From: Rugalucina vietnamica
Lineage: Eukaryota; Mollusca; Bivalvia; Lucinida; Lucinidae
DNA length: 64,000 nucleotides
Reading direction: 5' to 3'
NCBI GenBank assembly: GCA_964017185.1
Contig: OZ024874.1
Span: 55,717,356-55,781,355, forward strand
Shown here: one piece after another, positions 11,001 through 62,900 of the stretch
Layout of the letters: each line of letters begins with the position of its first letter
Position numbering within the stretch: position 1 is the stretch's first letter
Notes under the pieces: model-generated
The model's database searches: none
What the model saw: only the letters and a program-made list of their open reading frames with translations
What the model was told of the DNA's origin: nothing
Position numbers and translations under genes: made by a program

Positions 11001-14000
11001 TTCGCGGTAAACGCTACACTGTTTTTGCTACACGGATATTACAATTCCTTTCTAAAACCATAATTTCCAGCCTCTAGCCATCTTCTGTGCTTGTACAGCT
11101 CGGTTTGTGCCTGACCTGTTCGAAAACCACATTGTTGGTTTTCTCTTGAGGCGGCTTATATGACTGTATGACCTTAGCTGATGTAAAGAAAGTTTAACAG
11201 GTGAGAATGTTCGTGAATTTGTTGCAATTACATAAACATTGCAGTCTTGTAAACTTTTGAATAAGGTCGGGCATAGTTGCTTAGTGGAAGAACATCAGAC
11301 TCCGGACTAGATGTTTGGGATTCAAATCCTGCGGCCTTGTATCTTCAACCCACTTTATCCTTAACTTTTGCACTCGGACTGACAACAGAAAGCTTTAGAT
11401 TTGTGTTTTATTCGGATAATCCTTTTGCTGCATATTTAATAGAAGTTGTTCTTCCTGTTACAGCGTGCCAATGCTTCCATGTTTGAGCAGGCTTGTAACG
11501 AGCGCCTGCAGCAGTTTGATAATGACAGCGACGAGGATATCTGGGAAGAAAAAGAGATCACATTCTCACCAACAACGCCACCAAAACGACAAGAGTGAGT
11601 ACTATTTTAGTCTATGGTTGTTAATCGTCAACCAAGTCCCCTGACATGAGCGGACCCTTCATAGAGGTTTCTAGCAAGTTCAGTGTAAACATTTGAGCCG
11701 GGACACAACTGGTCTTTGGGTTTCCGACCGGATCTGACATAAACCAGCCTATGCAATCACTGAAAATAGTTGGGAGCTTGAAATTTTGGATTCAAGTAGA
11801 AGAGGAATTGTACTATCAGAGTAGCGAAAACAAAGGCGCTGATCAGCTGTGCTTTGCAGTTACTGCACAGCTGATCTGCGCTTTTGTTTTCGCACTGACT
11901 ACTGATATAGTGCTTCAAAATGGATGCCACCTAGTTGCAGAAATTTAAAGTTACTTTCCTGATGAAGGCCTAGTGCCGAAAATTTGAAATAGAGTGAAAA
12001 ATTACCCTAGTGTATAAACTATTAATTGAAATGATTGTGCTTGGCCCCGGTTCATACAAAGTATTTGCAACACTTTTAGTCCTATGGATGTCACATTAAT
12101 AATGCTGTGCGTCTGACAAAAAGTTCCTGTGACAAAAACAGCTTGTCAAAACTAGGTCAAGGTCTTAAAGTGTGTCCAGGTCACGAGGTTATAAAACTTT
12201 TTTCATGCTCAGCTCAGCTCATGCTCAGACTAAAATTTATCCTGCTCGTAAATGTTAAATTGGCATTTTAGCATTTATTAGCAGCAGGATAAACTGGAGG
12301 CTTTGGCTTTCTGAACCTTCAATTTCAATATACATGTATTTGGGCTATTTTGGTATTTATGAGCACTTTAAATTTTATGCTCGGCTGAGTTGAGCATGAA
12401 AAAATTTTATAACCTTGGGACCAGATCATGAACATCCACATTTATCCACTCTGATCAACTCCTGTTGATATGCCGTTGTTTGTTTAAGAAGACTCCACGT
12501 GGCTCGGAGTAGTCGTGACAGCGATGATAGTACAGACTCAGAGGAGGAACTGGACTCGCCAAAACGTATCACACAACAACCAGCCACGGCCAGTCAAGGA
12601 GAAAACATGGATGTGGACTCCACTGAAGGTACATTTTCTGGAAATATAGAATCTACTTTTCTGACTAGCTTGGTTATATATTTTATATATTAAGGGAGTT
12701 AAAACTTGATCTAAGATATGCTTAAAAAACCCAAAGCATTAAATGAGCCGCGTCGTGGGAAAATCAACAATGTGGTTTCCAACCAGGTCTGACACAAACC
12801 AGGCTGTATAATCACAGAAGATGGCTAGAGGGTGGTCATTTTGGATTTAAAAAGTAGAAGAATTGTACTATCCGTGTAGCGAAATCAAAAGCGCTAAACA
12901 GCTTTGGAGATACTGTGAAGCTGATCTGCGCCTTTGGTTTCGCATATGCAGATTGTTGGTTTTCTCATGAGGTGGCTCGAATGATTAAGGCTTGTTTTCA
13001 AGTGCAATTCATTTTGCTGTGCTTGGGAACTAAGGTTGATAACGAAATTAAGTTATAAGGTTGATAATTTGATGCAAAAAGCGTCAACTGAAAAAAAAAA
13101 AAAAGTAATATATAAAATAACGAAAAAAGACAAAACAAACTGGTATTTGAATGCAAAATGAATATTTGTAACAGACAAATCCTTGCTTGTTCCTGGTAAA
13201 GACCCTCATTATACAGCTGTCCAAGGACAAACCAGCATTCTAAATTTTGAAAAAAAAAAAAAAAAATAAAAAAAAATAAAAAAAATCATATATATAAAAG
13301 GGAATGGAATACCATTATAACTTCTTATTTGTGTTATGTTGTATCATTATTTATGGAATGCTTCTACTACAGCAAACTGGACAGCCAATTTTGAAGAAGC
13401 ACCCGCCACCCCGGATGCTGGTCCCGTTGCCATGGATACATCACCGTGGGACGGCAATGCCAAAGAACAGCCGGAGAAGTGGGCAGACTTCACTAACAAA
13501 GTCCCGGACGAGGAGACGAAAGAAAACTGGGCAGATTTTAGTAATTTTTCCAATATCAGCAGGTGAGCAGGTGTTAAAGTATTACATAAAATTAAGTTAA
13601 AACCCTAAAATTCTCTTTTTTTAGCTCGACTGCACGAAGTGCATAGAGCTATTGCAGTCACCCCGGTCGTCCACGTTCCCGTTCCCGTTCCCGTGCGCGT
13701 GCGCGTGCGCGTCACACTTGCGTTAAAGTTTTCTAGAAGTCCATATCTTGACAACCACTCATCAGAAAGCATTCATACTTGGACCATAGATACCCTGTAG
13801 GGTTAGCTTTCATTCCATGGCATCGGGCCCCTGGGTCCAGGCCAGGGGGTGGGGCTGGAGGTTAAAATCTAGAACACCTTTAAAAATGGCAATTCTTGTG
13901 TTAAAGTTTTCTAGAAGTCCATATCTTGACAACCACTCATCAGAAAGCATTGATACTTGGGCCATTGACACCTTGTAGGGTCGGCTTTCATTCCATGGCA

Positions 14001-17000
14001 TCAGATCCCTGGGTCCATGCCAGGGGGTGGGGCTAGAGGTTAAAATCTAGAACACCATTAATAATAATGGCTTTTCTGTGATATAGTATTCTAGAAGTCT
14101 ATATCTTGAAAACTTTTTATCAGAGGGCTTTCATACTCGGACCATAGGTACCCTGTAGGGTTGAGTTTCATTCCATGGCATCGGGCCCCTGGGTCCATGC
14201 CTGGGGGGGTGGGGCTGGAGGTTAAAAACTAGAACACTAAAAAATAGATGTACTGCTGTGTAACTTTTACAAGGAGGCATATCTTGACAACAACTTATCA
14301 TAAAGCATTCATACTTCATACACTTTAGGTTCCATGACATCGGACCTCTGGGTCAGAGTCAGGGGGGGGGGGGGGGGGGGGGGGCTAGAGGTCAAAATCT
14401 AGAACTCCCCGAATTTTTTTTTCTTTTTATTTCTTAATAGAAACAACTTAGGAGGATGGTTGGTCATTGATCTTTTGACTTTGTGACACTGACTTGTGTG
14501 TCATGACGGTAAGGGTCAGTTGACCTACTTTCCATGGTTCAGTGATTTTGCCTTATATCTTGACACTCAATTAGTATATTTTCTTACTTCTTTCAGATTA
14601 TGAGTTAGTACGTCCAGGCCTTTGACCCCAACATACTTGTAGGTCACTGTGACCTAATTTCACGGTTCAGTGATTTTGCCTTATATCTTGACACTCGATT
14701 AGTATATTTTCATACTTTTTTCAGATTATGAGTGAGTATGACCAGACCTTTGACCCCAATATACTTATAGGTCACTGTGACCTAATTTCACGGTTCAGTG
14801 ATTTTGCCTTATATCTCGGTACTCAAATGGTTTATGAACAAACTTCTTTCAAAGTATGTTTGCGTATGACAAGACCTTTGACCCTGAAGTAGTCCTAGGT
14901 CACTGTGACCTAATTTCACGGTTCAGTGATTTTGCCTTATATATTGACACTCGATTAGTATATTTTCATACTTTTTTCAGATTATGAGTGAGTATGACCA
15001 GACCATTGACCCCAATATACTTATAGGTCACTGTGACCTAATTTCACGGTTCAGTGACTTTGCCTTATATCTCTGCACTCAAGTGGTTTATGAACAAACT
15101 TCTTTCACACTATGTTTGCATATGACAAGACCTTTGACCCTAAAGTAGTCCTAGGTCAATATGACCTAATTTCACGGTTCAGTGATTTTTCTTTATATCT
15201 CGGCACTCAATTGGTATATGAACATACTTCTTTCATGATATGTATGAGTATGACAAGACCTTTGACCGTAAAGTATTCCTGGGTCACTGTGACCTAATTT
15301 CATGGTTCAGTGATTTTGCCTTATATCTCGACACTCAGTTGGTATTTTTTCATACTTGTTTCTGATTATGAATGAGTATGACCACACCTTAAACCCAAAC
15401 ATACTTATAGGTCACTATGACCTAATTTCATGGTTCAGTGATTTTGCTTTATATCTCAACACTGAATGGGTATATGATCATTTTTCTTTCACATTATGAG
15501 TAAGTGTCACTAGACCTTTGACCCTGCAATACTTATAGGTCAGTGTGACCTTTTTTCACGGTTCAGTGATTTTGCCTTGTTTCTTGGCACTCACTTGGTA
15601 TATGAACACACTTCTTTCACAATATGAGTGAGACCTTTAAATCTTAGGTAGTTATAGTTAACTTTCATGGTTCAGTGATTTTGCCTTATTGCATCAAGGC
15701 AAAAAGATGTATGAGCATAATGCTTTGGGTTACTGGTCGGGTTTGGCCTTATGTTTGACAAAGGTCAGAAGCAGTCGAGCACGCTGTCCTGCGACAGCTC
15801 TTATTTTTTATTTTTTTTTTTTACATTAATATTGAGATTGAGATTAATAGCTTGTTCGAATCATATATTGAATAACAATTAGGGTATGCTTACAGTAGCT
15901 TTAAAAAATGACATATAAAAAGAGTCACCTTTCAACCTAAATGGTAGTACAATGCATTTGAAAATTCTGAAAAAAAATATATAAAAAATGAAGAGCCCTT
16001 GTTGCTTATAATGAAAACATTTTAAATGAGCCGCCCCATGGGAAAACCAACAATCTGCATAGGCGAAAACAAAGGCGCAGATCAGCTTCGCGGTAACCGC
16101 GAAGCTGATCAGCGCCTTTGTTTTCGCTACACGGATAGTACAATCCCTCTACTTCCTAAATACAAAATTTCAAGCTTCTAGCCGTTTTCTGTGCTTGTAC
16201 AGGCTGGTTTGTGTCAGACCTGGTCGGAAACCACATTGTTGGTTTTCCCACGAGGCGGCTCAAATGAAGGAAGTCAAGAGCCTGTAGGGTTTTGCCAAGC
16301 TGGAATTGAATTCTATTATGTAGATGCTGACGTTTGAGCCACCTCGTGGGAAAACCAACAATGTGGTTTCCGAACAGGTCAGACACAAACCGGCCTGTAA
16401 AAGCACAGAAAAGAGCTAGAATCTTGAAATTTCGGATTAAAGTAGAAGAGGAACTGTACTATCCGTGTGGCGAAAACAAAGGCGCTGATCAGCTTCGCGG
16501 TTACCGCGAAGCTGATCTGCGCCTTTGTTTTCGCCTATGCAGATTGTTGGTTTTCCCATGAGGCGGCTCATTTGTTTATTGATTGATTTCAGTGCCGAGA
16601 ACAACCCGAGGAGTAGTTCTCCAGTTGACATGGACACAACAGAAGTCAGCTCAAGAACAAACGCCTACTGTAAGTATTTTTTTTTACCCGAGTACATATT
16701 TGTAGCCTATGCAAAAAAGTAGATGTCAAAGCTAATGTGTGATGGGTGGTTTTATGCTTGCTTAAGTGATATTCTGGCAATAGTGGATATAAGTAAGGGA
16801 CACTGTGCTTATGTTGCAAAAACATCTAATTTGAATTTAACTTGATGTGCATCGAGTATAGATTTGCTTGTATGATGTTTGATGAAATTCACATGGCTCA
16901 AGTTAAAGTTTGATTTTCCAAACTTTTTCCGTGAAACCAATCTTGAGATGTTTTGACAGATTTGTTCATAAGGACTTGACAGATTTGTTCATAAGGACTT

Positions 17001-20000: not shown

Positions 20001-22646
20001 AAGGTGCAGATCAGCTTCGCGGTCAGCACCTTTGTTTTCGCTACTCGGATAGTCCAATTCCTCTTCTACTTAAATCCAAAATTTCAAGCTTCTAGCTCTT
20101 TTCTGTGCTTGTACAGGCCAGTTTGTGTCAGACCTGTTCGGAAACCACATTGCTGGTTTTCCCACGAGGCGGCTCATATAGTGTGTCTTGATTTGCGTTC
20201 AAGACTTGAAGCAGACCTTGTCAAGTCACATTTGAGCCGCCTCGTGGGAAAACCAACAATGTGGTTTCCGAACGGGTCTGACACAAACTGGGCTGTACAA
20301 GCACAGAAGATGGCTGGAGACTGGAAATTTTGGATTTAGAAAGTAGAGGAATTGTACTATCCGTGTAGCGAAAACAAAGGCGCTGATCAGCTTCGCGGTT
20401 ACCGCGAAGCTGATCTGCGCCTTTGTTTTCGCATAAGCAGATTGTTGGTTTTCTCATGAGGCGGCTCATTTCTTCTATGGGTAAGATTACTGACCATCCT
20501 GACCTGACATTTTGTTGACCATGGATGTAAAGCAAAAAACCTTTAATACAAACAAATGAAAACCTCCCATCTTATTAAAACATTAATTAATAATAAGCAA
20601 ACATCTAGTACTGGTAAGCATAATTTGTACTACAAAAGATGGACAAAATGTCTCTTTATTTCAATGCAAAAACACTTTTCACAGCAAGGCACTGTATTGA
20701 AAGACGATTATTACTTGTTTGTTTTGTTATATGGCCCAGTTTTCTGGGTGGTTCCTGTGTTCATGGTATGCAAGTATTTTAGCTGAAACTTTGAAGAATG
20801 TATGAATTTTCTAACAAATTGTCAAGTTCACCAGCATCTGCCATCCATATTGTGAAAGAAAAATAATTAACTGTTTTTGTGAGGCTTGTTCAATGAAGAG
20901 GCTTGTTCAATAATTTCATTGATCTGAATGTAGGAGTTATGCCATATTCAAAATGGGCAGATGTCTTTAAAAAGTTCCAGTCTGACATCTGACAGTGAAT
21001 TATTTTTAAAGTTACTTATTTCATGCAAGGTGTAATGCAATAGGGAAACATTAAAATTTGATAAGAATTTTATGAATCATTGAAATTGTCAGCCACTTCT
21101 TAAGTGACCTACAAATTCTGGTGCCTTCTGGGGAAGTCAAAGAACAATATAAAAAAAAACTAGAAATGCGTGTTTGTAAAACACTATGCCCCCAACTGTA
21201 TGCTTGTCCCTAAACTGGTAGCCTGTATGATTCATTTATTTCATTTGAATGAAGTGAAATTTAATTTCCTAAAGAAGCTGTTCGGTTGCCTATGTTTTTG
21301 ACCTCGATCCAGAAACAGAATGTAAGCTTTTTGCATACAAGTTAGAAATGGAGTAAAAATTTCAAAATGGAGTTATTTTGTCAAAATTTGATGGAAAGTC
21401 CTAAAAAAATTAATCAGGTGATCTTCTTCTCTGACAGCCCCAACCAGTATACAAAATATGAAGGCTCTAGCTTAAATACTTTTTCAGATATCTTGCACAC
21501 AAGATTTTCAAATTTTGTTTTAAAATTTTCAAATTTTGTTTTAAAAGGGGCATAACTCCAAAAAGGCGCATAACTTGAACATGAAAAAAAATACGGGTCA
21601 ACTATTTTTTCATGAGGAATGTGTATATAAAATTTCAAAACCCTAGCGTTCACCGTTCAAAAGTTTCAAATTTCACCGAAAAGTGGAAAAATCAATCAAA
21701 ACTTGAAAATTCCGTATTTTTGTCAAAATTTGACGGAAAGTTCTCAAAATTTGATCAGGTCATCTACTCATCAGCCCCAACCAGTATACCAAATATGAAG
21801 GCTCTAGCTTAAATACTGTTCGATATATCTTGCACACAAGATTTTCAAATTTTGTTTTCAAAGGGACATAACTCATAAAAGGGGCATAACTTGGACATGA
21901 AAAAAAATACGGGTCAACTATTTTTTCATGAGGAATCTGTATATAAAATTTCAAAACCCTAGCATTCACCATTCAAAAGTTTCAAATTCCACCGAAAAGT
22001 GGAAAAATCAATCAAAATTTCAAAATTCCGTATTTTTGTCAAAATTTGACGGAAAGTTCTCAAAAGTTGATCAGGTCATCTACTCATCAGCCCCAACCAG
22101 TATACCAAATATGAAGGCTCTAGCTTAAATACTGTTCGAGATATCTTGCACACAAGATTTTCAAATTTTGTTTTCAAAGGGACATAACTCATAAAAGGGG
22201 CATAACTTGGACATGAAAAAAAATACGGGTCAACTATTTTTTCATGAGGAATCTGGATATAAAATTTCAAAACCCTAGCATTCACCATTCAAAAGTTTCA
22301 AATTCCACCGAAAAGTGGAAAAATCAATCAAAATTTCAAAATTCCGTATTTTTGTCAAAATTTGACGGAAAGTTCTCAAAAGTTAATCAGGTCATCTACT
22401 CATCAGCCCCAACCAGTATACCAAATATGAAGTCTCTAGCTTAAATACTTTTCGAGATATCTTGCACACAAGATTTTCAAATTTTGTTTTCAAAGGGAAA
22501 TAACTCAGAAAAGGGGCATAACTCAGACAAGAAAAAAAATACGGGTCAACTATTTTTTCATGAGGAATACACACATGAAATTTCAAATCCCTAACATTCA
22601 CCATTCAAAAGTTAACAGACGTACACACGCACACACACACACACAC

Positions 22647-22679
<33 letters not shown>

Positions 22680-23118
22680 CCGAAAGCAATATGCCCTTCC
22701 AACTTTTTCAAAGTTGGGGGCATAAAAATAGAAAGAAAAATCAAAATCTAGTTGTTAGTTTTAAGAATCTTTGAAGACAGATTTTTTTATGAAACTTCAT
22801 AGAACTGTATTGTAACCTGTAGATTTTCCTCATCCCTTGGGCTCTATGTGAGCCGTAACATGAGAAAACTGCAGTAACAAAAGGCGCAGATCAGCTTGGC
22901 AGCAACTGCCAAGCTGATCAGTGCCTTTGTTTTCACTACATGGATAGTACAATTCCTCTTCTTTCCAAATCTAAAATTTCCAGCCTCTAGCCATCTTCTG
23001 TGCTTGTGCAGGCCTGTTTGTGCCGGACCTGGTCGTAAACCCTGAAGACAGGTTTTCTCGTGTGGTGGCTCATGTTGTATTTTGCATTGTTTTTGTTTCA
23101 GCTCATTGGTTACAACAT

Positions 23119-23152
<34 letters not shown>

Positions 23153-26100
23153 TAATAATACATTTATGTGCATGATTCTTCACTGAGATGTATTGTATGG
23201 ATTCTTCAGTTATGCATGCATCTGTGTTCTTAATCGACTGCACAATGTATGTTGTATAATTATTTACAGCCCTTTTCACTCGAGCTTACCATTTCAGCAT
23301 TTAGGTCAATCAAGTTTTTGTGTATAAATCAGGTAATTATTATAGAACTGAAACAGTGTCCTAGGTGCCAGGTGTTCTTAAAATCTATACAGTATTTATC
23401 TTTAAGTAATGTTTTTACCTCTTCTGATATAATCATTGTAATTGTTTGGTTAAAGCACATTTTTATTTCAAAATTCTTTGCACAACATATACACCTGGAC
23501 CTCTTTATAATATAGGGTTATTGCACTGATATCGGTGAATATTGTCCCGAGTTGGGATATCGAAGGACGCGAGCTTGCGAGCGGCCGTAGATATCCCAAC
23601 GAGGGACAATATTCACCGATATCAGTGCAATAACCCTTTTATTATATAGCTATAAATACTTACTTCTCATTTTTTATGATTTGTTGATTGTTTATATTAA
23701 AAAAATGAAAAAAATTACGGGAAGACATAACCCTTTTATTATATAGCTATAAATACTTACTTCTCATTTTTTATGATTTGTTGATTGTTTATATTAAAAA
23801 AATGAAAAAAATTACGGGAAGACAGCGGCAATATCCATGAGTGATATCATTTTTGCACTAGTGCAATATCAAATGATATCATTTTTGCACTGTTACTATT
23901 CTGAAGCATATTTTGCAATAATATCATTATTTCCGACATTTTATTTCTTCTTTTGACTTTAATTACTTAAATCTTTAAGTGCCAAACTTCAGTTGACGTT
24001 TAGTTTCGCTATGACGTCATTTTCAGCGTGACGTCAGATAAAGATGACGTCATCAGAGTTGGCGTCCAAAAATTACAACTTTCCATGATGGTCGTCAAGT
24101 AAAAAATCGGCAATGCTTTACAGAAAGATTTTTTCCCCTTTTAACAAAGTGTGCAATATCATAAAAGTGTGCCGATATCGTATGATATCTGCACACTTGT
24201 TACTCGGCTTTTATCGCTATGTTTTATTCATTTGATATTTATAGCTATATAATAACACAGTTCGTTACAGCACGGTTTCGGATATAACACGGACCATTCA
24301 TGGACCCCAAATGGTCTAATTTTGCTATGTATCTATATATTTTACTCTCTTTATAACACGGATTGGATAGCTAACAAGGAAATTGTCTTGGACCCCAACA
24401 ATAGTGTTATAAAGAGGTTGAGTTGTACAATGCATATTAAAAACACACACTTGAAGTTGGATATGAATGAAATCGGACTTTCATTAATTTTAGCAGTTAC
24501 CTATTGGTATTTACATGGCCAAAACTCCACATAGTAAGCTAAAGAATTTCACTGGAGAAAACTGTTTTAAAGGGAATTTAGTTTGAAACGCTAACTCAAA
24601 TCAGCAGATCAATCAATCCAGATGTCTTTGTGGACAACATGAAAAGAAACTCAGATCTTCAGAACACATGGTCTTCTTGTGTAATACAGATGCTCTAACG
24701 GCAAGCTCAAGTGAAAAGGGCTGTTACAGTCACAAAATCAAAATATCTGAAGATTAGAAAATACTTGGCTATTGAGTAACAAATGGCACCATATCTTTTT
24801 CATTGCATGTTTCTAAATAATGCAGCTTTGGGTATAACAATTACATGGCCGTATCGCTCAAAATCTCATTTAAATCGATGACATTCATTTTACTCCAGAT
24901 AATTGTAGCAAGCATACTTAATTTGCTTATACTGGCATTTGTTACAAATTCACTGGCCTATGCATATTTTGACTGACAGGCAGCATTTGGTCAATCGAAT
25001 GTATGTATAAAACTTCTGTACACCAGTTACCCTGACAGCAGAGTATGTACTGAATATCTATGCGCCTTGTAGTTTGAAGTTCAGGGGCAAATTGTTCACA
25101 ACTTTGTCAGCTTAACCTCAACTCGTCAACTACATAAGCAAATAGACTGTTATATTTTGTTGATAAAATGTGAGAATCCTTTGCAAATGCAAAGGATTCT
25201 CACATTTTATCAACAAAATATAACAATGTATTTGCAATATGCATGTTTGAAATTTTAACGAATCGTTAACTAAAGATGTCGTTAATTTTGATCAACTGGC
25301 CCCTGGTATCGACAGAAGGAGTCTTGATTTTGTTTGAATATGTTGAGTAACACTCATTATTGAGTCAATCAAGACTAGAATTCTAAGTTTTCTGTATGTT
25401 TGTTTACAGTTTCCTGACCAAGACAGGCTTGATGAAGTCAGCTGCCCCACCCCCTAACTGTAAGCCCTCGGAGAAGGTGGAGGACCCCCCTGTGTCAGAG
25501 AACGGACCAACGAACGAAGATCCTGCGGCTCCTGATAGCTGTAAAATGGCTCAGGTCGAAGAACTTAGGTGAGCTTTGATTAATGAGCCATGACATGAGA
25601 AAACCTTTTTTCGGGGTTTCCGACCCAGTTCGACACAAATGGGCCTGTACAGTCACAGAAAAAGGCTGGAAGCTTGAAACAAAGGGGCTGATCAGCTGTG
25701 CAGTGCAGTTACTGCACAGCCGATCTGCATCTTTGTTTTTGCATACGCAGATTGTTGGTTCTCTCATGATACCGCCCATTTTTAGTTGCTAATGACCTAC
25801 AACACAGTGTTTGGAATTGAATTAAGATAATATCTGATAATTTCATGCATGTAAAACTGTATTTTGCATACCTTGGCCTTTTTAGCTCACCTGAGCCGAA
25901 GGCTCATAGGTGAGCTTATAGTATACCCATGCTCCGGCGTCCGTCCATCCGTCCGTCCGTCGTCCGTCGTCGTCCACAATGTCAAAGATCTTCTTCTCTG
26001 AAACCGATGGGCCGATTGTTCTCATATTACACATACACCATCTACAGGTAGGGGGAAAGAATAATTGTGTTTTTTGTTTTGATCGGATAAGGACTCTGGT

Positions 26101-29616: not shown

Positions 29617-29880
29617 TTATAAAACACCTACAGATAAAATGCTGTGATTTAATAAAATCCTTACAAAACAATTTATTATGTAAAACTTAATTGTTGAGTA
29701 ACTTTTCCGAAGTAATTGTAGGGCGATCTTATTTCTTTTTACCATAAAGGTCTTCAAAATGCATAAAAACTATGACAGTGTACTTAAAATGCATATCTTA
29801 CCATTGAAAACAATCTTGCATCTGGTTTTAGTAAATTTATTTTCATATTTTATTTTATAAGATTCTCATGTTTTTAGAAT

Positions 29881-32128: not shown

Positions 32129-33650
32129 TTTAGCTCACCTGAGCCAAAGGCTCACAGGTGAGCTTATAGTATACCCATGCTCCGGCGTCCGTCGTCGTCC
32201 GTCGTCGTCCGTCGTCCGTCGTCCGTCGTTCACAATTTCAAAGATCTTCTTCTCTGAAACCACTAGGCCAATCAAAGCCAAACTTCATGTGGAGCATCCT
32301 TAGGAAGGGGGAACGAAAGTTTGTATAAATGGTCATGGTCACATGACCAAGATGGCCGCCATGGCTATAAATAGCAAAAACCTTTAAAAATCTTCTTCTC
32401 CAGAACCAGAAGGCCTATGATTTTGAAACTTAGCATGAAGCATCAGGCAATGGAGCTCTACAAAAGTTGTATAAATCATGACCCTGGGATGACCTTGACC
32501 TTTTTTACGGCAAGGTCAACTTAGGCCGCCCATGCATTTTAATGGGAAAAAATAGGAAAATGTCAATTATTGGCAAAAAAACTTGCTAGGAATGAGCAAA
32601 TGGACAGAATATTCATGGTTATGAAAATATTTTGGGCCCAGAGGGTTGTCTGCCCCTGCCCCGGGGCTATCTACATGTGTATGACAATAATATTCAAACA
32701 TCTTCTTCTCTGAAACCGCTTGGCCAATCAAAGCCAAACTTTATGTGGAGCATTCTTAGGAAGGGTGAATGAAATTTTGTATAAATGATCACGGTCACAT
32801 GACCAAGATGGCCGCCATGGCTATAAATAGCAAAAACCTTTAAAAATCTTCTTCTCCAGAACCAGAAGGCCTATGATTTTGAAACTTGGCATGAAGCATC
32901 AGGCAATGGAGCTCTACAAAGTTTGTATAAATCATGACCCTGGGATGACCTTGACCTTTTTTACAGCAAGGTCAACTTAGGCCACCCAAGCATTTGAATG
33001 GGAAAAAATAGGAAAATTGTCATTTAATGGCAAAAAACTTGCTAGGAATGAGCAAATGGACAGAAGATTTATGTTTATAAAAATGTTTTGGGCCCAGAGG
33101 GTTGTCTGCCCCTGCCCTGGGGCTATATACATGTGTATGAACATAATATTCAAACATCTTCTTCTCCGAAACCGCTTGGCCAATCAAAGCCAAACTTTAT
33201 GTGGAGCATTCTTAGGAAGGGTGAATGAAATTTTGTATAAATGGTCAAGGTCACATGACCAAGATGGCCGCCATGGCTTTAAATAGTAAAAACCTTTAAA
33301 AATCTTCTTCTCCAGAACCAGAAGGCCTATGATTTTGAATCTTGGCATGAAGCATCAGGCAATGGAGCTCTACAAAAGTTGTATAAATCATGACCCTGGG
33401 ATGATCTTGACCTTTTTTATTACAAGGTCAACTTAGGTTGCCCATGCATTTGAATGGGGAATATTGTTACAATGTCATTTTAGGGCAAAACTTGCAGTAA
33501 ATTGGCAAATGGACTGAATCTTTATGATTTAAAAAAGAAATTGACTCCAGAGGTTGCTCTGACCCTGCCCTGGGGTTATATACTTGTATATTACCATTCT
33601 AGTCAAACAAGGTCTCAGGTGAGCGTTTTCAGGACCATTGGTCCTCTGGT
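32129..33650 (+). mobile_element. Family C element inserted in a tandem array
   Basis: Same 5' hairpin, GTCGTCC tract, about three 450-bp monomers, inverted CTCAGGTGAGC and terminal hairpin. It interrupts the GTTGCCATGGCAA array; GTAGATA is found on both sides, either a target duplication or coincidence within the array. Confidence 0.87.
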
Positions 33651-37275: not shown

Positions 37276-37732
37276 CAGGTCTCGAGGTATAAAACTTTTT
37301 TCTTGCCCAACTAAGCTGAGCATGAAATTTCAATAGCTCATAAAAACTGAAATAACCAAATTCAGTTGAAACCCTTAAGACAGTAATCTATCCTGCTGAT
37401 AAATGAGCCGCCTCATGGGAAAACCAACAATCTGCATATGCGAAAACAAAGGCGCGGAACAGCTTCGCGGTAACCACGAAGCTGATCAGCGCCTTTGATT
37501 TCGCTACTCGGACAGTACAATTCCTCCTCTACTTAACTCCAAAACTTCAAGCTTCTAGCCTGCTTCTATAGCTGTACAGGCCAGTTTGTGTCAGACCTGT
37601 TCGGAAGCCACATTGTTGGTTTTCCCACGAGACTGCTCAAATGTTAAAATGCCATCAATTGTTGGCATTTTAACATTTATGAGCAGGATAAATTTTAGTC
37701 CATGAAAAAAGTCTTATGACCTCAGGTCCAGG
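37276..37732. mobile_element. Family E MITE, copy 3, split by family A copy 27
   Basis: CTCGAGGTATAAAACTTTTT left; TGTTGGCATTTTAACATT after the insertion; right end CTTATGACCTCAGG. Confidence 0.72.
37403..37640 (-). mobile_element. Family A MITE, copy 27, inserted in a family E MITE
   Basis: TTCGCGG/CCACGAA hairpin left. The host sequence CTGATAAATGTTAAAATGCC is split, with AA (or AAAT) repeated at the junctions. Confidence 0.85.
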
Positions 37733-39683
37733 CTTTCTGGCAGTATTGACTGGTACAAATGTATGTGCCATGGCTGATCTTAATGTTCAAGTGGAGGTCG
37801 TAGATCATTTTGTAGACTTGTCATGTTTCAGCCCATTTTATGTGTAAATCAAACAAAATATGCTGTAAAATAAAGAGTGTTTATTTTGTCTCGGTCGATC
37901 ATAGATTTCCACATAATTGTACCTGTATCATAAAAAGAATTATTAAAATGCTGATACAGATGAAAATCTTGTTCATCCATCCCTGTTAAATTTTAAGCAA
38001 ATGCCCTCATCTCCATATGATCTCAGCTGTTGAGTGGGACAACCAACCAAAATATGCAGTCCTTGATAGCATAGCATAGTCTTTAATTATAGCCCCGCTT
38101 TGAAAAAGTGGGGCTATACTGGATTCACCCTGTCCTTCCGTCGTTCTGTCCTTCCGATATTCCGTTATTCTGTTATTCCGTTCTTCCGTCCATAAATCTG
38201 TAACCACTCATAAATTGTGAACCAGTTGTTAGACTTTAACCAAATTTGGCATATGCATCAATATTGACAATATTAACTTATGTATAAATGCATGTCAGTT
38301 TCCCCAAATTTGCATAAGAGTTATTGCCCTTGGATGGCCCTATATTGACATCAGAGTTTCGTTTCCGCTCAATATCTTGAGAACGAATTGACAGAATCCG
38401 ACCAAATTTTGTATGCACATCATCATTGACAAGATCTAGCTTGGGATTGTTACCCGTCATTTTTCGCAAAATTTTGACGGAGTTACGGCCCTTATTTGAC
38501 GTCAGAATTTCGTTTCCGCTCAATATCTTGAGAACGAATTGACAGAATCCGACCAAATTTTGTATGCACATCATCATGGACAAGATCTAGCTTGGGATTG
38601 TTACCCGTCATTTTTCGCAAAATTTTGACGGAGTTACGGCCCTTGATTGACGTCAGAATTTCGTTTCCGCTCAATATCTTGAGAACGAATTGACAGAATC
38701 CGACCAAATTTTGTGTGCACATCATCATTGACAAGATCTAGCTGGGGATTGTTACCCGTCATTTTTCGCAAAATTTTGACGGAGTTACGGCCCTTGATTG
38801 ACGTCAGAATTTCATTTCTGCTCAATATCTTGTGAACGAATTGACAGAATCCGACCATATTTTGTGTGCACATCAACATTGACAAGATCTAGCTTGGGAT
38901 TGTTACCCGTCATTTTTCGCAAAATTTTGACGGAGTTACAGCCCTTAATTGACATCAGAATTTCGTTTCCGCTCAATATCTTGAGAACGAATTGACAGAA
39001 TAAGACCAAATTTTGTATGCATGTCATCATTGACAAGATCTAGCTTGAGATTGTTACCCGTCATTTTTCGCAAAATTTTGACGGAGTTACGGCCCTTGAC
39101 TGACGTCAGAATTTTGTTTCCGCTCAATATCTTGAGAACGAATTGACAGAATCCAACCAAATTTTGTGTGCACATAAACATTGACAAGATCTAGCTTGGG
39201 ATTGTTACCCGTCATTTTTCGCAAAATTTTGACGGAGTTACGGCCCTTAATTGACGTCAGAATTTCGTTTCCGCTCAATATCTTGAGAAAGAATTGACAG
39301 AATCCGACCAAATTTTGTGTGCACATCATCATTGACAAGATCTAGCTTGGGATTGTTACCCATCATTTTTCGCAAAATTTTGACGGAGCATAGCGTACAC
39401 ATCTCTTATAAATTTTTTGTGCATTTTTTCTTCGCTGAACCATGAAGTTAGCATATGGTTTCAACTGTACAACTGGGCAATAAAGTGTTGGTGATGCTGC
39501 AGCTCACTGCAGGGGGTGTGTAATTAGCTGAACATATCAGATAAAAAGCTATTTTCATTAAGGTGCAAAATCGTTAATATTTCACGTAGAAAACGGATTG
39601 AAAATGCAAAGTTATTCAAAAGATTCTGATAATTATGAATTTTTACTTTGTTTTCGTCTAAAATGTACAATTATGTATTCTGA

Positions 39684-40862
39684 TTTTTATCGCACCTGCT
39701 TATAGCAGGGTGCGATATAGGAGTCCAAATTTCTGTCCGTCCGTCCGTCCGTCAACATTTACGTCGAAGTATGGTTTTCTCGACATCAGAGATAGCTGCG
39801 AGTCTGAAACCTTGCATAGTAATTGTCCCTGACATACCCTTCAAGCACGCACCTTAACCCAGTGGCTTTGACCTATATTTCACGGTCCACTGACTTTGAG
39901 AATTTTTACGTCGAAGTTTTGTCAACATTACGTTTCTCGACATCAGAGATAGCTGCGAGTCTGAAACCTTGCATAGTAATTGTCCTTGACATACCCTTCA
40001 AGCACGCACCTTAACCCGGTGCCCTTGACCTATATTTCACGGTCCACTGACTTTGATAATTTTTAAGTCGAAGTTTGGTTTTCTCGACATCAGAGATAGC
40101 TGCAAGTCTGAAACCTTGCATAGTAATTGTCCTTGACATACCCTTCAAGCACGCACCTCAACCCGGTGCCCTTGACCTATATTTCATGGTCCACTGACTT
40201 TGAAAATTTTTACATCGAAGTTTGGTTTTCTCGACATCAGAAATAGTTGGAATCTGAAACTTTGCATAGTAACTGTCCTTGACATGCCCTTTAAGGTGGA
40301 ACACCGGTAAAAAAATATCACTCCGCCGTACCCCATGAAAATAGTGCATTTAAAAATCTCATCCACACATGTTTGATGCTGAATAGTGAGAACATTTCCT
40401 ACATTCTGTGTAAGATCTCGCATTTACTACAAAGTGTCGCCATAATACGACATGTTAGTGCACAAATCACCATGCCAAAGCGGACTATATCTCATCGGAG
40501 GCTTCTGTTTGTACACTACCCCCTAGTAAAATCCGGACCATTCTAGAGTGTAAAATCCACCCATAGGTATATTGCAAAATGGAATACCGGAAAATCGAGA
40601 TGGTCAACCCCCCTAGGTAGTGGCACCTTTGGGTAGGAGTGTGGCTGGGCTATCAAGTTAGAGAAGACCTTTTGGTGGTGCAACGTTGGGTACTAGCTGG
40701 GAGTGTCACAAAGTGAGGGAATTTGCATTGCAGCCTATGGGAGATTTTTTACTGGTGTTGGACCTTAAGCACGCACCTTGACCCGATGCCCTTGAACTAT
40801 ATTTCACGGTCTGTTGACTTTGCCCGATGCAGGTGCGATATCGACCTCCGCGGAGTTCTTGT
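39684..40862 (+). mobile_element. Family H element, copy 1
   Basis: 5' hairpin TATCGCACCTGC/GCAGGGTGCGATA (39689-39718), CCGTCCGTCCGTCCGTC tract, monomers of about 146-159 bp starting GACATCAGAGATAGCTGCGA, inverted terminus GCAGGTGCGATA (40829-40840), hairpin CTCCGCGGAG, TTCTTGT. Interrupted by a MITE at 40291-40769. Confidence 0.85.
40291..40769. mobile_element. TTAA-flanked MITE inside family H copy 1
   Basis: Inverted ends GGTGGAACACCGGTAAAAAA and TTTTTTACTGGTGTTGGACC, flanked by TTAA. The uninterrupted family H monomer reads CCCTTCAAGCACGC, so the empty site is clear. TTAA target use fits piggyBac or Kolobok MITEs. Confidence 0.8.
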
Positions 40863-41291
40863 TATATACATATATCAATTATCAACAGATAATTAATCAC
40901 GAGATAACCAAACCAAAATTTGCATAATGACCGCAGTAGCTCTGTGGTAGTTAATTATTTCATAACTCTGTAATGTGCACCATCTGAACCGGAGATACCT
41001 ATCATCTCAGGCAGAGTGAAAGGTATCTCGGGGTCAAAAACAATAAGAGATGTGTACGCTATGTATGGCCATTTTTTGAGGTCAGAATTTCGTTTCCGCT
41101 CAATATCTTGAGAACGAATTGACATAATCAGACCAAATTTTGTATGTGCATCAATATTGACGAGATCTAGCTTGTGATAGTTACCTGTCATTGTTTTTTT
41201 CACCCTGCAAAAAAGCTGAGAAGCGGGGCTATAGTCAGATTCTCTGACAATTCTAGTTCCACCTAAAATAAGTGTGAAAAAGGTGCTAATA

Positions 41292-42704
41292 CAGCCCCTT
41301 TCACTTGAGTTTGCCGTTTGAGCATTTAGGTCAATCAAGTTTGTAAGTAAACAAGGACAACTTTGTATTCTATTTTAGAACTGAAACACTGTCCCAGGTG
41401 TCAGGTGTTCTTAAAATCTATTTAGCATTTATCTTTAGGTAATGTCACTTCTTCTGATAAAACATAATTGGTTAAAGCACAGTTTATTTCAAAATTCTTC
41501 GCAAAACATATACAATGCATACTAAGAACACACATTTGAAATAGGATAGGGAAAAAAGCAGCATTGTATAAATTTTTATCGCACCTGCTTATAGCAGGGT
41601 GCGATGTAGGAGTCCAAATTTCTGTCCGTTCGTGCGTGCATTCGTCCATCCGTCAACATTTACGTCGAAGTTTGGTTTTCTCGACATCAGAGATAGCTGC
41701 GAGCCTGAAACCTTGCATAATAATTGTCCCTGACATACCCTTCAAGCACGCACCTTAACCCAGTGCCCTTGACCTATATTTCATGGTCCACTGACTTTGA
41801 ACATTTTTACGTTGAAGTTTTGTCAACATTTATGTCGAAGTTTGTTTTTTTCGACATCAGAGATAGCTGCGAGTCTGAAACCTTGCATAGTAATTGTCCT
41901 TGACATACCCTTCAAGCATGCACCTTAACCCGGTGCCCTTGACCTATATTTCACGGTCCACTGACTTTGAAAATTTTTACGTCAAAGTTTTGTCAACATT
42001 TATGTCGAAGTTTGGTTTTCTCGACATCAGAGATAGCTGCGAGTCTGATACCTTGCATAGTAATTGTCCTTGATATACCCTTCAAGCACGCACCTTAACC
42101 CAGTGCCCTAGACCTATATTTCACTGTCCACTGACTTTGAAAATTTTTATGTCGAAGTTTGGTTTTCTCGACATCAGAGATAGCTGCGAGTCTGAAACCT
42201 TGCATAGTAATTGTCCTTGACACACCCTTCAAGCACGCACCTTAACCAGGTGCCCTTGACCTATATTTCACGGTCCACTGACTTTGAAAATTTTTACGTC
42301 GAAGTTTGGTTTTCTCGACATCAGAGATAGCTGTGAGTCTGCAACCTTGCATGGTAATTGTCCTTGACATGCCCTTCAAGCACGCACCTTGACCCGGTGC
42401 CCTTGAACTATATTTCACGGTCTATTGACTTTGCCCGATGCAGGTGCGATATCGACCTCCGCGGAGTTCTTGTAGCAGTTACTTATCGGTATCTACATGG
42501 CCAAAATCTCACATTGTAAGATAAAAAATTCACTTGAGTTTGCCGTTTTAAAGGTCATTCAGTTTGAAACTGTCACTCAATTCAGCAGTTCGATCAATCC
42601 AGATGTCTTTGTGGACAACATGAAAAGAAACTCAGATCTTCAGAGCACATGGTCTTAATGTGTGATGCAAATGCTCAAACGGCAAACTCGAGTGAAAAGG
42701 GCTG
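41292..42704. mobile_element. Family I element, copy 2
   Basis: Ends CAGCCCCTTTCACTTGAG and CTCGAGTGAAAAGGGCTG. Carries family H copy 2. No clear 3-bp duplication here. Confidence 0.78.
41573..42473 (+). mobile_element. Family H element, copy 2, inside a family I element
   Basis: Same hairpin, tract (CCGTTCGTGCGTGC form), five monomers, inverted terminus GCAGGTGCGATA, hairpin CTCCGCGGAG, TTCTTGT. The family I copy at 23.3-24.7 kb shows the empty site (ATTTTAGCAGTTAC). Confidence 0.85.
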
Positions 42705-44549: not shown

Positions 44550-44729
44550 CAATCTGCTTTTTTCGAAATTATTTTGGTGTCAGTGATCAGAAACAGAACC
44601 GGAATAGTGAAACGTCAAACTGATAAATACCACACCAGGGGGATAGGGCTTGACCGGAGGGGGATGATCACTACTGATTGAGCGAAGCGACCAGATACTG
44701 ACACGATGATCATACCACTAGTTGTATTG

Positions 44730-44825
44730 ACACGATAATCGAGCCGTAAGTCAATCAAAAACAAATACACGTGCTTCCGGTTAACTGCCAAAATGTGAAT
44801 CTTCAGACAAAACTCCGTTTTCAAG
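44730..44825 (+). promoter_or_regulatory. Putative MDN1 promoter: abutting E-box and ETS motif
   Basis: CACGTG (44768-44773) is directly followed by CTTCCGG (44774-44780), 46 nt before the ATG. CACGTG is the Myc/Max/USF site and CTTCCGG/CCGGAAG the ETS core; both are common in housekeeping and ribosome-biogenesis promoters. No TATA box is evident. The function is inferred. Confidence 0.5.
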
Positions 44826-44933
44826 ATGACAGAGAGAACAGTTTGGGGTTGGAATGTATTTAATGCTATAGAATCAATTGGCAAACGTAGCCCAGTAATA
44901 TCGAAAGAACTGTCGAAATATTTACACAAACAG
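44826..44933 (+). CDS. MDN1: MDN1 exon 1 (start codon)
   Basis: 36 codons from ATG, ending phase 0 at donor gtaaat. Encodes FNAIESIGKRSPVISKELSK and ends YLHKQ; joined to exon 2 this gives LHKQ-IWSPADR, parallel to vertebrate LAKQ-VWTPQDR. An in-frame stop at 44796-44798 rules out an upstream start in this frame. Intron 1 is 9.25 kb and mostly transposons. Confidence 0.88.
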
Positions 44934-50900: not shown

Positions 50901-53900
50901 AACCATATAACATACAAGTCAATTTTTTTCTCTTGTAGTCTGAATAAACCGCAATTCATCAGGAAAACAAGTCCGTGAATTGTATACCCCCTTAAACCCC
51001 AATTTTGTATAGCAGAACTGGGGTATGGAGCGGTATACCTATTTTTCTTATTTTTGCTCCAAAACATAGATTGTGGGTACTCATTAGAACCACCTCGCCG
51101 AAGCGGTTCTAATGTGTACCAACAATCTATGTTTTGAGCAAAAATAAGAAAAACTATCAAAAAATTTCTAGTGAAAATTTTCAATTTTTACAACTTAGAA
51201 AAATTCAATATACCACATGGGCGTGTTTTCGTGATAAACAAAAGTCCTTTCTGAGGTAGATCTAGGACCACCAATAATTTCAAATCCTATATATTATTGC
51301 TAGAACAGTGCCAAACAATGTAGCCTCCAATAAAGGCCCATCCCTTTCTATAGAAAATGCATTATTTATAATAAACGCCCGGGCGTTTAATAGAATTTTT
51401 ACGGTAACCTATATTTTTCTACAAAAACCTATAATTTTTGCAGAAAAGTAAGATAAATCATTTTAAGACCAGTGTTTGTTTTCTGGTGCGTGTAAATGTT
51501 TTGAGGATGCATTCTTTGAACAGCTGTTCATGATTTTGTTTTTCTTTTGAGCTGCTGACAGGTATATTCATTCTATTTTGGTTGCAATATCAATTCACAA
51601 TAATGAAGCTCCAGGATTTGGAAGAAAGCAGCTTTCTTTCAAAATCTGCTCAAGTCATATCTATTAAAGACTCCAGGCTTATTAAGCAGAAAATTTAAAT
51701 TCATATAAATATGGGTTATTGTTATTAAACGATAAGGGGACACACAGGCTTACATTTCTTTCAGACCAAGGTGGCGATACACATACAGCTTCACAATATT
51801 TCACATAATTAGAAATATACATGATATATACAGATAATGAGTTTGTCATTTACATGTTTTCTGAACTTGAAAAAAGCGGGGTTTATTTTGTAAAGTCATC
51901 TTCCTCTCTGGAATGCCCTCCGAAAGCTTGAAATCTATTTCATTTTCACAAAATTTTCCTCAAAAGGCTCACTCGTTCAAAGATTTCCAAGTAGTAAATT
52001 TGTGCCGTATCCCCAGATATTAAAGCCCAATGTTTCATGAAATCTGACTGTTTTACTTTATAAAATGTCTCTAAAACGATCTAAAAAATACGGCCTGTAG
52101 ACATCTCTGAAATTTTTCATAGAAAAAATGAAGTATTTTTAGCTCACCTGAGCCGTCAGGCTCACAAGGTGAGCTTATAGTATACCCATGCTCCATCGTC
52201 CGTCCGTCCGTCGTCCGTCCGTCCGTCGTCCACCATTTTCAAAGATCTTCTTCTCTGAAACAGCTTGGCCAATCAAAGCCAAATTTTACATCTATGGGAA
52301 GGGGGAACCAATGTGTATATAAATAATCCAGGTCACATGACCAAGATGGCCGCCATGCCCATATATGGTAAAAACCCTTCAAAAATCTTCTTCTCCGGAA
52401 CCACTGGACCGATTTCAACCAAACTTGGCATGAAGCATCGATGACTCAAGTACTACAATGTATATATAAATCATGACCTTGCGGTGACCTTGACCTATTT
52501 TACGGCAAGGTCAACATAGGTCGCCTTTGCATTTGAATGGGAAAAATTGTTAAATTGTCATTTAAAGGAAAAATCTTGCAGAAAATGAGCAGTAGGACTG
52601 AATATTAATGATTCTGAAAAAAATTGGGCACCAGGGGCTCATCCGCCCCCATCCCGGGGCAATATACATGTATATTATCATAATATTCAAACATCTTCTT
52701 CTCTGAAACCGCTTGGCCAATCAAAGCCAAATTTTACATGAAGCATCTATGGGAAGGGGGAACCAATGTATATATAAATAATCCAGGTCACATGACCAAG
52801 ATGGCCGCCATGCCCATATATGGTAAAAACCCTTCAAAAATCTTCTCCAGAACCAGTGGACCGATTTCAACAAAACTTGGCATGAAGCATCGATGGCTCA
52901 AGCACTACAATGTGTATATAAATCATGACCCTGTGATGACCTTGATCTATTTTACGGCAAGGTCAACATAGGTTGCCAATGCATTTGAATGGGGAAAACT
53001 TTTAAAATGTAATTGAAAGTGAAAGTCTTGCAGGAAATTGGAAGTAGGACTGAATATTAATGATTCTGAAAAAAATTGGACCCCAGGGGCTCATGTGCCC
53101 CCACCCCGCGGCAATATACATGTATATTTCCATAATATTCAAACATCTTCTCCTCTGAAATCGCTTGGCCAATCAAAGCCAAATTTTATGTGAAGCATCT
53201 ATAGAATGGGGGAATCAATGTGTATATAAATAATCTAGATCACATGACAAAGATGGCCGCCATGCCCACAATGGTAAAAACCCTTCAAAAATCTTCTTCT
53301 CTGAAACCAATAGACTGATTTCAAGGAAACTTGGCTTGAAGCATCGATGGCTAAAGTACTCCCATGCATATATAAATCATGACCCTGTGATGACCTTGAC
53401 CAAGTTTATGGCAAGGTCAACATGGGTTGCCTATGCATTTGAATTGGGAAAACTGTTAAAATGTCATTTGAAGGGAGAAGCCAGCAGGAAATTGGCAAAT
53501 GGACAGAATATTGAAGATTCTGAAAAAAAGAAAATGGCCCAAGGGCTTCATCTGCCCCTGCACTGGAGTTAAATATCATAATATTCAAACATGTCTATTG
53601 GTATATGCAGCAGATCTCAGGTGAGCGTTTACAGGACCATTGGTCCTCTGGTATGATTCTGCGTACTATAACAACTAGAATATTTTTAATTTATGTCAGT
53701 ATATGCAAGAAAAGATCTAACATAAGTTAGAATAACACAGTTTTGCAGTTTTGCTGAATTTTCATTTTCGACCAAGGGCTCAATATATCCCATTTCCGTC
53801 GGTATGGAGAAGTTTAACGGAATACCGATGGAAATATTCCGTCTAAGTTATCTCAAGCGTTTTTTTTACAGTTTGTTGTCTAATTACTACACTATTATGC

Positions 53901-59900: not shown

Positions 59901-62900
59901 ACAAAATGACAGCTATGAGAACTTAGACAATTTTTCTTACTTTTTTACAGGTACAGTTCAACCTCATTATAACGCGCCTCACTATAGTGCAGTTTTCAAT
60001 ATAACGCGGCCATGCCATGGCTCCCAAATTAATTATTTTGCTATATATCTATTGTAAATAACCGCATTATAACACAGTTCACTTATAACACGGTCTGTTT
60101 TCATGGACCCCAAAGATAGCGTTATAATGAGGTTGACCTGTAATGGCATTCATGGTTTTTGATGGAACTTCTTGATATCGTGCCTACATGATGTTCACTA
60201 ATTGGACATTTGCATGAAGAAGTATTATTGCGAAAAAGTAATTTTTGACAAAATGACAGCTAAGAGAAGGGCATTCATGGGCCGATCAACTCCTACTACA
60301 GTTTTTGATGGAACAATTTGATATTATGCCTACATAATGTACACCCATTGGGCATTTGCATGAAGAAATTTTATTGTGAAAATATAATTTTTGACAAAAT
60401 TACTGCTATGAGAACTTAGACAATATGTCCTAATACAATTCAATTTGTCTTAGCTTTTTTTTACAGGTGAGGGCATGGTTTTCTTAGCTTTATTATAGGT
60501 ATAGGCATTCACATGCCGATCAACTCTACCACAGTTTTTGATGGAACTATTTGATATGAGAACATGTAGGCCTATAGGACATTTGCATGAAGAAATTTTA
60601 TTGTGAAAAATTAATGTTTGTGGTAAACAGTTACACTGCGGGGGGTATTTAATAAGTATTGCTTATTGACACTTTTTTCATTCATTTTGACATACCGCCC
60701 AAAGCGTGCAGTAGAGCGCATATTATTTCCACATTAGCACAAATCGAAAATTTGTCTCGACATGACAAAATACTGTTGCCTGTGACATAGAACCACAATC
60801 CAAACAAATTTAACATGCCTGCGGTACACTACGTAATGAACTCAATACAATAGGAGCCGAGTTCTCCGAATATAATTTTATTAGCCAATCATTTGGTGAT
60901 ACGGCTTTTTCTCCCAAGGGATGATATGGGTCACGTGGGTATGTGATACGAGTCGAGTGATATGGCTTTTTCTCCCAAGGGAATGATATGGGTTTTATCA
61001 ATTTTTGAACGGATATGGCTTTTGAGATATTGTGCTGCGATACGTGAACGTAACTCTTGTCTGTATCGCATCTGCAAAAAGAACATATTTTGTAGTAAAT
61101 ATATGATAAGTGTAATTACTTTGCTACCATATCAATTTCAGATACAACATGCAACCCAGAAAGACCTCATCACAGCCAAGTAGTCAGATTACGCCAGAAA
61201 AAGTAGATCCTCAGACTCACACTATGGGACTTGTTTTAGAGACAGACTTAAGTAGTTCTGTGACTTGTGTTGGTGGGATACTACTTACAAAACAACAGGG
61301 GTCATCTAGAGAGGCCATTGTAAGTGATATTCAGACTGTTTGGAGTTACTTCTACTATGAAAATTCATAATATTAGACAGTTTTTGTTGTTGATAGGTAC
61401 CTCTGCCGTGTAGTGCCTTGAGCAAGACACACTCCCCATGAGTACTTGTTCACACCACAGAAGCTGTGGCTCCATCCTGACATTACTGAAACATTGTTGA
61501 CTGAAGCGATTCCATCAATTCGCATCTACAACATTTTTTGTTTAAGAAATAAGCAAAATTGTCCCTTAATTAACATGATTAATATCATAAAATTTTCTAG
61601 CTAGTCTTCTGAAGATCTGAATAACTTTTAGATAACCCCTTTTAGATAATCCACTGCCAGTTCCCTCTAACAAGACCAATTTTTATAGTCTGGCCCTGGC
61701 TGTGTCCTCTGGGAGTCCTGTACTACTACAGGGGTTGATGGGGTCCGGGTACAATTCTCTAGTAGTCTCTTATTATACATTACAGGTAACAGAGCTGCTA
61801 CCAGTTCCCTCTAACGAGACCAACCTGTACAGCCTGGCCCTGGCTGTGTCCTCTGGGAGCCCCATACTACTACAGGGGGTGGTGGGGTCAGGGAAGACGT
61901 CCCTGGTGGAGCATCTGGCCAAGTTGACAGGGCGGTCAGGACCACCACAGTTGATGAAAATACAGTTGGGAGACCAGATGGACAGCAAGGTTTTGTATTT
62001 GTGGCATTTTCATCATGATCAAAAAATTGGCTTCACGGCTATGGTGTAGGCCATTGTACCCATGGAGTATAAGAGTTGCACTATCTTCATTTCCGTTTTT
62101 ATAATCTTAGTAATATCAACTGTATCATAAAAACTGAACAAATTCTTATTTTAAGGAAAATTATGTTCAGGGTAGTATGTTATTTGAGATACTGATTTTA
62201 GGACATAAAAGTATTTTTCTGAGCACTGTATTGAATTACACATGTTCTTCCTGATGTACTGAAGATAAAATATTATGTAGACTAACATAATCTATTTGTT
62301 TCCAATCTTTATTTGGAAATGCAGAAACATATAAATTTTAGAATTGCATTATTTATGACAAACAATTAAACCACCTTGGCAGGGTTTATTTATTACTTTT
62401 CAGGCATTACTTGGGACATACCGCTGCACAGAAGTACCCGGAGAGTTTGTATGGCAACCAGGTGTTCTGACCCAGGCTGTAACCAATGGTTACTGGGTCC
62501 TGCTGGAGGACATAGATTATGCCCCCATGGAGGTCGTGTCAGTGTTACTGCCCCTGTTGGAGACCAGATGTTTGTCAGTCCCAGGGCATGGGGATAATAT
62601 CATGGCTGCTCCTGGGTTTCATCTTTTCGCCACACAGAGGTATGAATTTTTAAACTTTATCTATCTGGGCCCAGTTGTTGAAAACTTTGATAGCTTAACG
62701 CTGTTGTTAAACCCTCAATTTGTTAACTATATATCGACTTTAAAAGCAAATACACTGTTATTTTTTTTTGTTGAAAAAATGTGAGAATCCTTTGCAATGC
62801 AAAAAAACCCAGTGTATTTGTAATATTGCCATTTAAAAAAAATCATTCACTAACGACATCGTTAATTTTGAACAACTGGTCCCTGATGCCCATGGTTCGG

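Follow-up and report, generated by a model that had tools for sequence, protein, structure and literature searches.

The 64,000-nucleotide stretch of the genome of the lucinid bivalve Rugalucina vietnamica analysed in this study (C6:55717356-55781355, hereafter the window) holds copies of six families of repeats, designated C, D, F, G, H and K. Every family was located and its ends read, and all six share a common layout in which a 5' terminus with a hairpin is followed by a short tract, an array of tandem monomers, and a 3' region carrying part of the 5' terminus in inverted orientation. The tandem monomers measure about 452-456 bp in C, 316 bp in D, 178 and 128 bp in F, 151 bp in G, 147 bp in H and 179 bp in K. 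Further copies and coding relatives were searched for in the whole genome (1.09 Gb, 47 contigs). It is very probable (roughly 0.85) that these repeats are non-autonomous Helentron elements (HINEs), each of which keeps the cis parts of the coding Helentron of its own lineage. The copies in the window are as follows.

1..1855, plus strand: family C copy, cut at the window start; ~452-bp monomers, 3' end CTCTGGT
13621..15804, plus strand: family F copy; arrays of 178 bp (13717-14316) and 128 bp (14514-15632), 3' end TCTTAT
21159..22727, minus strand: family D copy; 316-bp array (21525-22613), 3' end TTTCTAGT
25882..27562, plus strand: family C copy; a different 323-bp monomer in part of the inner array (26061-26830)
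32130..33650, plus strand: family C copy; array 32237-33609, in a repetitive host stretch of ~75-bp units
38086..41257, plus strand: family G copy; 151-bp array (38336-39388), one H copy inside, 3' end TTCTAGT
39687..40862, plus strand: family H copy 1, nested in G; 147-bp array (39933-40295), 3' end TTCTTGT
41576..42473, plus strand: family H copy 2; array 41652-42433, with a related site lacking H at 24432-24548
52139..53652, plus strand: family C copy; array 52238-53529, with an empty site in segment L019
59002..60668, plus strand: family K copy; 179-bp array (59240-59953), 5' edge backed by other copies, 3' edge uncertain

Family H is thus present in two copies (one within G) and family C in three complete copies and one cut by the window start. 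The D copy lies on the minus strand, with its 5' end at 22727 and its 3' end at 21159; when it is read in that direction, its 3' end (TTTCTAGT) agrees with those of the other families. The C copy at 25882-27562 is a hybrid in which a second monomer type occupies part of the array.

Terminal structures and insertion sites

Subterminal inverted repeats (subTIRs) of 9-13 exact nucleotides were found near both termini in all six families. When the first 18 nt of each 5' end were compared with the 3' region of the same family, the longest exact inverted match was 11 nt in C, 10 in F, 12 in H, 13 in G, 13 in D and 9 in K, and against the 3' region of any other family it was at most 6 nt. A hairpin at the 5' terminus was also present in six of six families. 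Relative to 200 dinucleotide shuffles, its folding energy was strongly favourable in C (z -7.5), G (-8.0), H (-6.8) and D (-5.9), and moderately so in F (-2.7) and K (-2.5). The hairpin is followed by a CCGTCC-like tract, which reads GTCTGTC in D and TTCCCG in F. At the 3' end, short palindromes can be read in the sequence, but they are weak as folds (C -0.8, F -0.5, G -2.0, H +0.8, D -1.8, K -1.8), that is, at or slightly better than the level of shuffles; in H the predicted fold differs from the CTCCGCGGAG palindrome.

The family boundaries were also supported by other copies in the genome. For K, 30 of 40 scored copies (the best 40 of 1234 candidates) start to match at query positions 5-10, corresponding to window 59000-59005. 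For C, all 40 matches reach at least the final T of CTCTGGT (query 122); 11 stop exactly there and the others no more than 9 nt away. The K copy in the window lacks a TCTNGT-type end, whereas K-type ends elsewhere carry TTTCTAGT. Over the first 60 nt of the 5' end, G resembles D (z 8.6) and K (z 7.9); the next highest value is that of H-G at z 3.9, and D-K stands at z 2.6.

A sequence-only reading of the window had proposed that the six families share one architecture, and the arrays, inverted matches, 5' hairpins and tracts bear this out; its element-specific monomer lengths agree with those measured here. Its inverted repeat of 10-13 nt holds for five families and shrinks to 9 nt in K. The proposed 3' hairpin can be read as a palindrome but folds weakly, and the TCTNGT-type end, which D shows on its minus strand, is missing from K in the window. 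The statement that the families have no obvious sequence in common was too strong, and six independent families are too many: the 5' ends of D, G and K show kinship, G having sequence in common with both D and K, so that the six did not all arise independently.

In a blind scan (k=9), words with an inverted copy nearby and that same copy again far downstream marked 24 loci on the plus strand and 19 on the minus strand, whereas shuffled sequence averaged 0.13 per strand. It was rejected as proof of the six families: C and H were caught, yet most loci belong to another palindromic repeat. Several peculiarities of H ends were also seen. Its 5' hairpin is tandemly duplicated in two copies (L011:6118-6175; L020:1609-1700), three H copies lie head to tail at L009:2422-4584 with 38-bp spacers of like sequence, and among H 3' ends across the genome most of the listed departures from C at base -4 are C-to-T changes at CG sites (TGATGCAGG), as decay of methylated CpG would produce.

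Insertion sites were examined in 38 two-ended copies recognised by pattern in the window and in segments L009-L054 (27 H, 5 C, 3 G, 2 F and 1 D). On average, the longest word common to both flanks was 3.50 letters, compared with 3.44 (sd 0.15, 300 shuffles) when flanks were exchanged, and flanks sharing at least 5 letters occurred in six copies against 4.88 expected. The T-run on the left was four long in 20 of the 38 copies, and the right flank began with T in 25. A search with joined flanks returned a match for 13 copies. Eight of these matches, covering H (five), C (two) and F (one) copies, were usable as empty sites; the F site is diverged on its right side, and at all eight only T residues are in question. 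No D, G or K copy yielded an empty site. The remaining five comprised three matches to neighbouring sequence of the copy itself, one weak match, and one ambiguous C copy at 32130, where the flank match can also be read as a 7-bp duplication. These data show that H, C and F copies insert at T without duplicating the target.

The repeats could in principle be miniature inverted-repeat transposable elements (MITEs) or other cut-and-paste DNA transposons with subterminal repeats, and the heptamer GTAGATA does stand on both sides of the C copy at 32130..33650, within a repetitive array. This explanation is extremely improbable, given that no target site duplication appeared in the 38 copies or the eight empty sites and that the coding partners described below encode a Rep and a PIF1 helicase. 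Consistent long target duplications and boundaries falling away from the hairpins, either of which would have spoken against Helentrons, were both looked for, and neither was seen, leaving only the C copy just mentioned as ambiguous. At 11 head-to-tail H junctions, CTTG and the TATCGC that follows are separated by 0-12 open positions (coordinate gaps 1-11), where about 0.05 such junctions would be expected by our arithmetic for 2,800 randomly placed copies. This only hints at rolling-circle read-through, because a preference for T-rich targets or later tandem duplication could raise the count, and the comparison covers head-to-tail junctions alone.

Coding Helentrons and their ends

Rep genes were sought with the PF14214 profile; of 409 candidates the best 150 were scored, all above the cut-off, and coding capacity was read from open frames. 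Autonomous partners sharing the ends were found for C, D and G (both ends) and for K (3' end). The C element on C5 (54459544-54472620) was read through in adjoining stretches, from its 5' end and tract (L031) through 3.2 monomers of 454 bp and an open reading frame (ORF) of 2621 codons to its 3' end (L030). The ORF contains DUF6570, Helitron_like_N and PIF1 domains. Its last 245 residues match Exo_endo_phos at E 2.7e-5 and 24.5 bits, which equals the curated cut-off, so that the assignment is borderline; this region was read in C alone. The D element on C13 (5' end L042, 3' end L032) has at least 3.3 monomers of 317 bp, and the G element on C12 (5' end L056, 3' end L037) at least 16.3 monomers of 151 bp. 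The Helentron-type Rep signature (F/Y)xR..QxRGSPHxH was present in five of five segments read (C, two D, G and K-type). The window HINEs are 78-84% (C), 90% (D) and 91-93% (G) identical to the 5' parts of these coding elements, and their 3' ends are 90-97% identical over about 40 nt. Matches to the C array at the G and K loci proved to be separate C insertions adjoining those elements.

Two further features of the C5 element were noted. Residues 269-419, near the N-terminus of the ORF, match Herpes_teg_N, a protease-like domain, just above the cut-off (E 1.1e-5). The element also sits within an inverted repeat, its flanks (L031 ~2702-2724; L030 ~2022-2045) being mutual reverse complements (GGTCATTTCATATGAAATTTAT).

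The association between 3' ends and Rep genes extends across the genome. For each family, the 3' end of one coding copy with its upstream sequence was used as the query and the best 40 matches were scored; matches are ranked by likeness to the coding copy, and the fractions are accordingly associations and not unbiased rates. For C, 28 of 40 matches are found on the same strand as a listed Rep gene and 6-12 kb downstream of it; none lies upstream or on the opposite strand. All 13 D matches of at least 93 bits fall at seven Rep loci, compared with none of the 27 weaker ones; here matches were paired with Rep genes by a script ignoring strand, and by inspection the strands agree. In G, the four full-length matches are all linked to Rep and the 36 terminal-only matches are not; in K, linkage was found for 4/4 strong matches and 1/36 others. 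Terminal-only matches are confined to about the final 40-60 nt, the extent to be expected if HINEs and coding elements have no more than this in common on the 3' side.

One putative K link, from the end at L044rc:970 to the Rep gene at C2:24431665, was rejected, as by inspection the query's own place was the only one of 40 scored copies near a listed Rep gene; the link of the other K-type end at the same locus, L044rc:512, was upheld. The K-type 3' end at L044rc:970 and its upstream sequence are 98-100% identical in all 40 scored copies (the best 40 of 1327 candidates), and this near-identity suggests a recent burst.

Taken together, the layout, the insertion at T without duplication, and the coding Helentrons with C, D, G and K ends back the Helentron/HINE interpretation that the sequence-only reading had put forward, and they suggest that each partnered family is moved by its own matching coding Helentron. 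Each HINE would keep its 5' terminus with the hairpin, the GTCC-like tract, the tandem array and a 3' end of ~40-60 nt comprising the subterminal repeat, the short palindrome and a TCTNGT-type terminus. The Rep/helicase/endonuclease of the lineage would act in trans, nicking both ends, copying out one strand and inserting it at T-rich sites, and its Rep would recognise the ends by the sequence particular to the family. The two binding sites of Rep may be the inner arm of the 5' hairpin and the 3' subterminal repeat, which form a pair of direct repeats.

Recognition of the ends and origin of the arrays

The sequence-only reading had further proposed a machinery that recognises structure and not sequence. 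For C, D, G and K the data did not support this, as every one of the four goes with a Rep lineage of its own. Rep identity is 61% between G and K-type, 51% between D and G, 47% between D and K and 40-42% between C and the others, and the two D copies are 98% identical. The likeness of the 5' ends runs parallel, with G-D and G-K alike and C apart, except that the G-D score comes out slightly higher than that of G-K and there is hardly any likeness between the ends of D and K. Rep and end similarity thus appear to agree broadly, over four lineages, which are too few for a formal test. Moreover, ends within 6 kb of each other pair within one family in 40 of 41 cases (window and L009-L028). This agreement favours family-specific ends over a single machinery reading structure alone, and the comparisons support a Rep that is probably matched to its family's end sequence, with the hairpin as a likely shared requirement.

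The alternative is that one Helentron machinery reads the shared 5' hairpin, subterminal repeats and 3' palindrome and moves all families regardless of their sequence. The same plan is indeed kept by six families with different letters, the insertion preference is similar across H, C and F, and no partner turned up for F, which was hardly searched, or for H, whose motif matches were the most numerous of those examined. We regard a single machinery as improbable nonetheless: in four families the particular end sequence is found again on coding elements, paired ends stay almost entirely within one family, and the 3' palindromes fold weakly.

For H, the end motif occurred 2851 and 2792 times in the genome, against 5 and 9 occurrences of the reversed control. 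H 3' ends that might belong to a coding partner were examined by their variant bases. None was near a listed Rep gene among 16 places with a non-T at -1 or among 100 of 225 matches with a non-C at -4 (both by inspection), and none lay within 15 kb of a Rep gene among 100 of 117 with a non-C at -5 (by script); these searches would overlook any partner whose upstream bases are unchanged or whose Rep lies outside the scored 150 of 409. H and F may be cross-mobilised by the machinery of other lineages, and recognition of structure may apply to these two families. The autonomous elements that the sequence-only reading had suggested looking for were thus obtained for C, D, G and K, and none for H and F.

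Several observations weigh against the HINE interpretation. Exo_endo_phos was not listed when the whole C ORF was scanned at E 0.001, and no solved structure was matched by sequence to the C endonuclease region. The D and G readings cover the two ends and Rep without running through the whole element, and the end match of the K-type coding element was read at the 3' side alone. In short 3' windows near further Rep genes, a known end was present in 9 of 20 and none in 11; later searches placed the ends outside the fetched window at five of these 11 loci. The window C copies are not recent deletion products of the coding C copy, since their arrays are just 78-84% alike. Many 5' matches are unpaired within 6 kb, especially in C (24 5' against 8 3' ends; totals 71 and 45), and the exception to within-family pairing is a chimera of a C 5' end and an F 3' end in L025. 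Finally, neither H nor F yielded a partner, F having hardly been searched. In the chimera (L025:5516-7550), a C 5' end with roughly one C monomer is fused directly to an F array and F 3' end.

The origin of the arrays bears on the same elements. In all three coding elements read there (C, D and G), an array of own-family monomers starts 108-259 nt from the 5' end. As a tentative proposal, with odds somewhat below even, the array may be an inherited working part of the coding Helentron, such that Rep, ends and array diverge together in each lineage and satellite-like arrays are exported by Helentrons, not captured by HINEs. A model discussed in the available part of an oyster study (PMC7492417) would make the arrays filler DNA captured by HINEs and foreign to coding Helentrons. 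The second inner array in the C copy at 25882-27562 indicates that arrays are replaceable; we nevertheless consider filler capture improbable, because the own-family array lies within the 5' part of each of the three coding elements read at that side. Whether satellite-like repeats start inside Helentrons, and whether Rep reads end sequence or structure, can now be tested.

Relation to known elements and other features of the window

Canonical Helitrons have a 5' TC and a 3' CTRR, encode a Rep and a PIF1 helicase, cause no target duplication and lack subTIRs. The elements described here resemble them in Rep, PIF1 helicase, absence of target duplication and, in C, D and G, a CTRR|T-type 3' end (CTGG|T, CTAG|T). 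They differ in having subTIRs and a 5' hairpin, in H and F ends reading CTTG and CTTA, in the Helentron-type residues of Rep, and in 5' ends that are not TC but T-rich TTAGC, TTATC or TATA-like. The full canonical combination of 5' TC, 3' CTRR and no subTIRs was therefore not found.

The closest likeness is to the Cg_HINEs of Crassostrea gigas. According to the available part of that study (PMC7492417), these share with the present families the 5' subTIR, a complementary inverted repeat forming the 5' hairpin, the GTCC-like microsatellite, the short tandem array, the 3' subTIR, a 3' palindrome, here weak as a fold, and T-rich insertion without target duplication, with related and unrelated families side by side; the 5' inverted repeat, GTCC-like microsatellite and satellite-like array that mark the Cg_HINE type were all found here. 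In the same text, none of 10 autonomous Repbase Helentrons could be related to any Cg_HINE, which left unanswered which Helentrons move array-bearing HINEs and where the arrays come from (PMC7492417). Here, by contrast, four families have coding partners, three of them with an array. The partners of four array-bearing HINE families are thus now placed on one genome, and such partners were lacking in the oyster study. HINEs and Helentrons of mites, mosquitoes and Drosophila, including DINE-1, likewise show subTIRs, a 3' palindrome, T-rich insertion and a Rep/helicase/endonuclease partner with common ends (PMC4067079). In the available part of that report, HINEs are mostly 84-99.9% identical to their partner, compared with 78-93% here, and tandem repeats are mentioned in some HINE copies and not in coding elements, whereas here they occur in both (PMC4067079). 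The bivalve elements Pearl (CvA, CvE, CvG), DTC84 and MgE have a comparable architecture, by description alone, in the accounts available; Pearl carries short arrays of no more than six repeats of ~160 bp. A search of the open-licence literature, with most subscription journals outside it, turned up no account of coding Helentrons that carry arrays and have been matched to HINEs of bivalves, and a comparison of the C 5' end with viral contigs gave no match.

The window also contains repeats outside the six families. A dispersed family of ~245 nt with a palindromic core (GATCAGCTTCGC...GCGAAGCTGATC) is present in both orientations at 3615-3859, 6901-7144, 12744-12988, 16023-16266, 16335-16579, 20233-20477, 37400-37643 and other positions; its copies are at most 93% alike and look MITE-like by eye. 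Arrays of 33-bp units at 45126-45216 and 45788-45865 are mutual reverse complements (TATCCGCACGAC core). At 61636-62784, two open frames resemble exons of what we take, from the translation, to be the AAA ATPase midasin.

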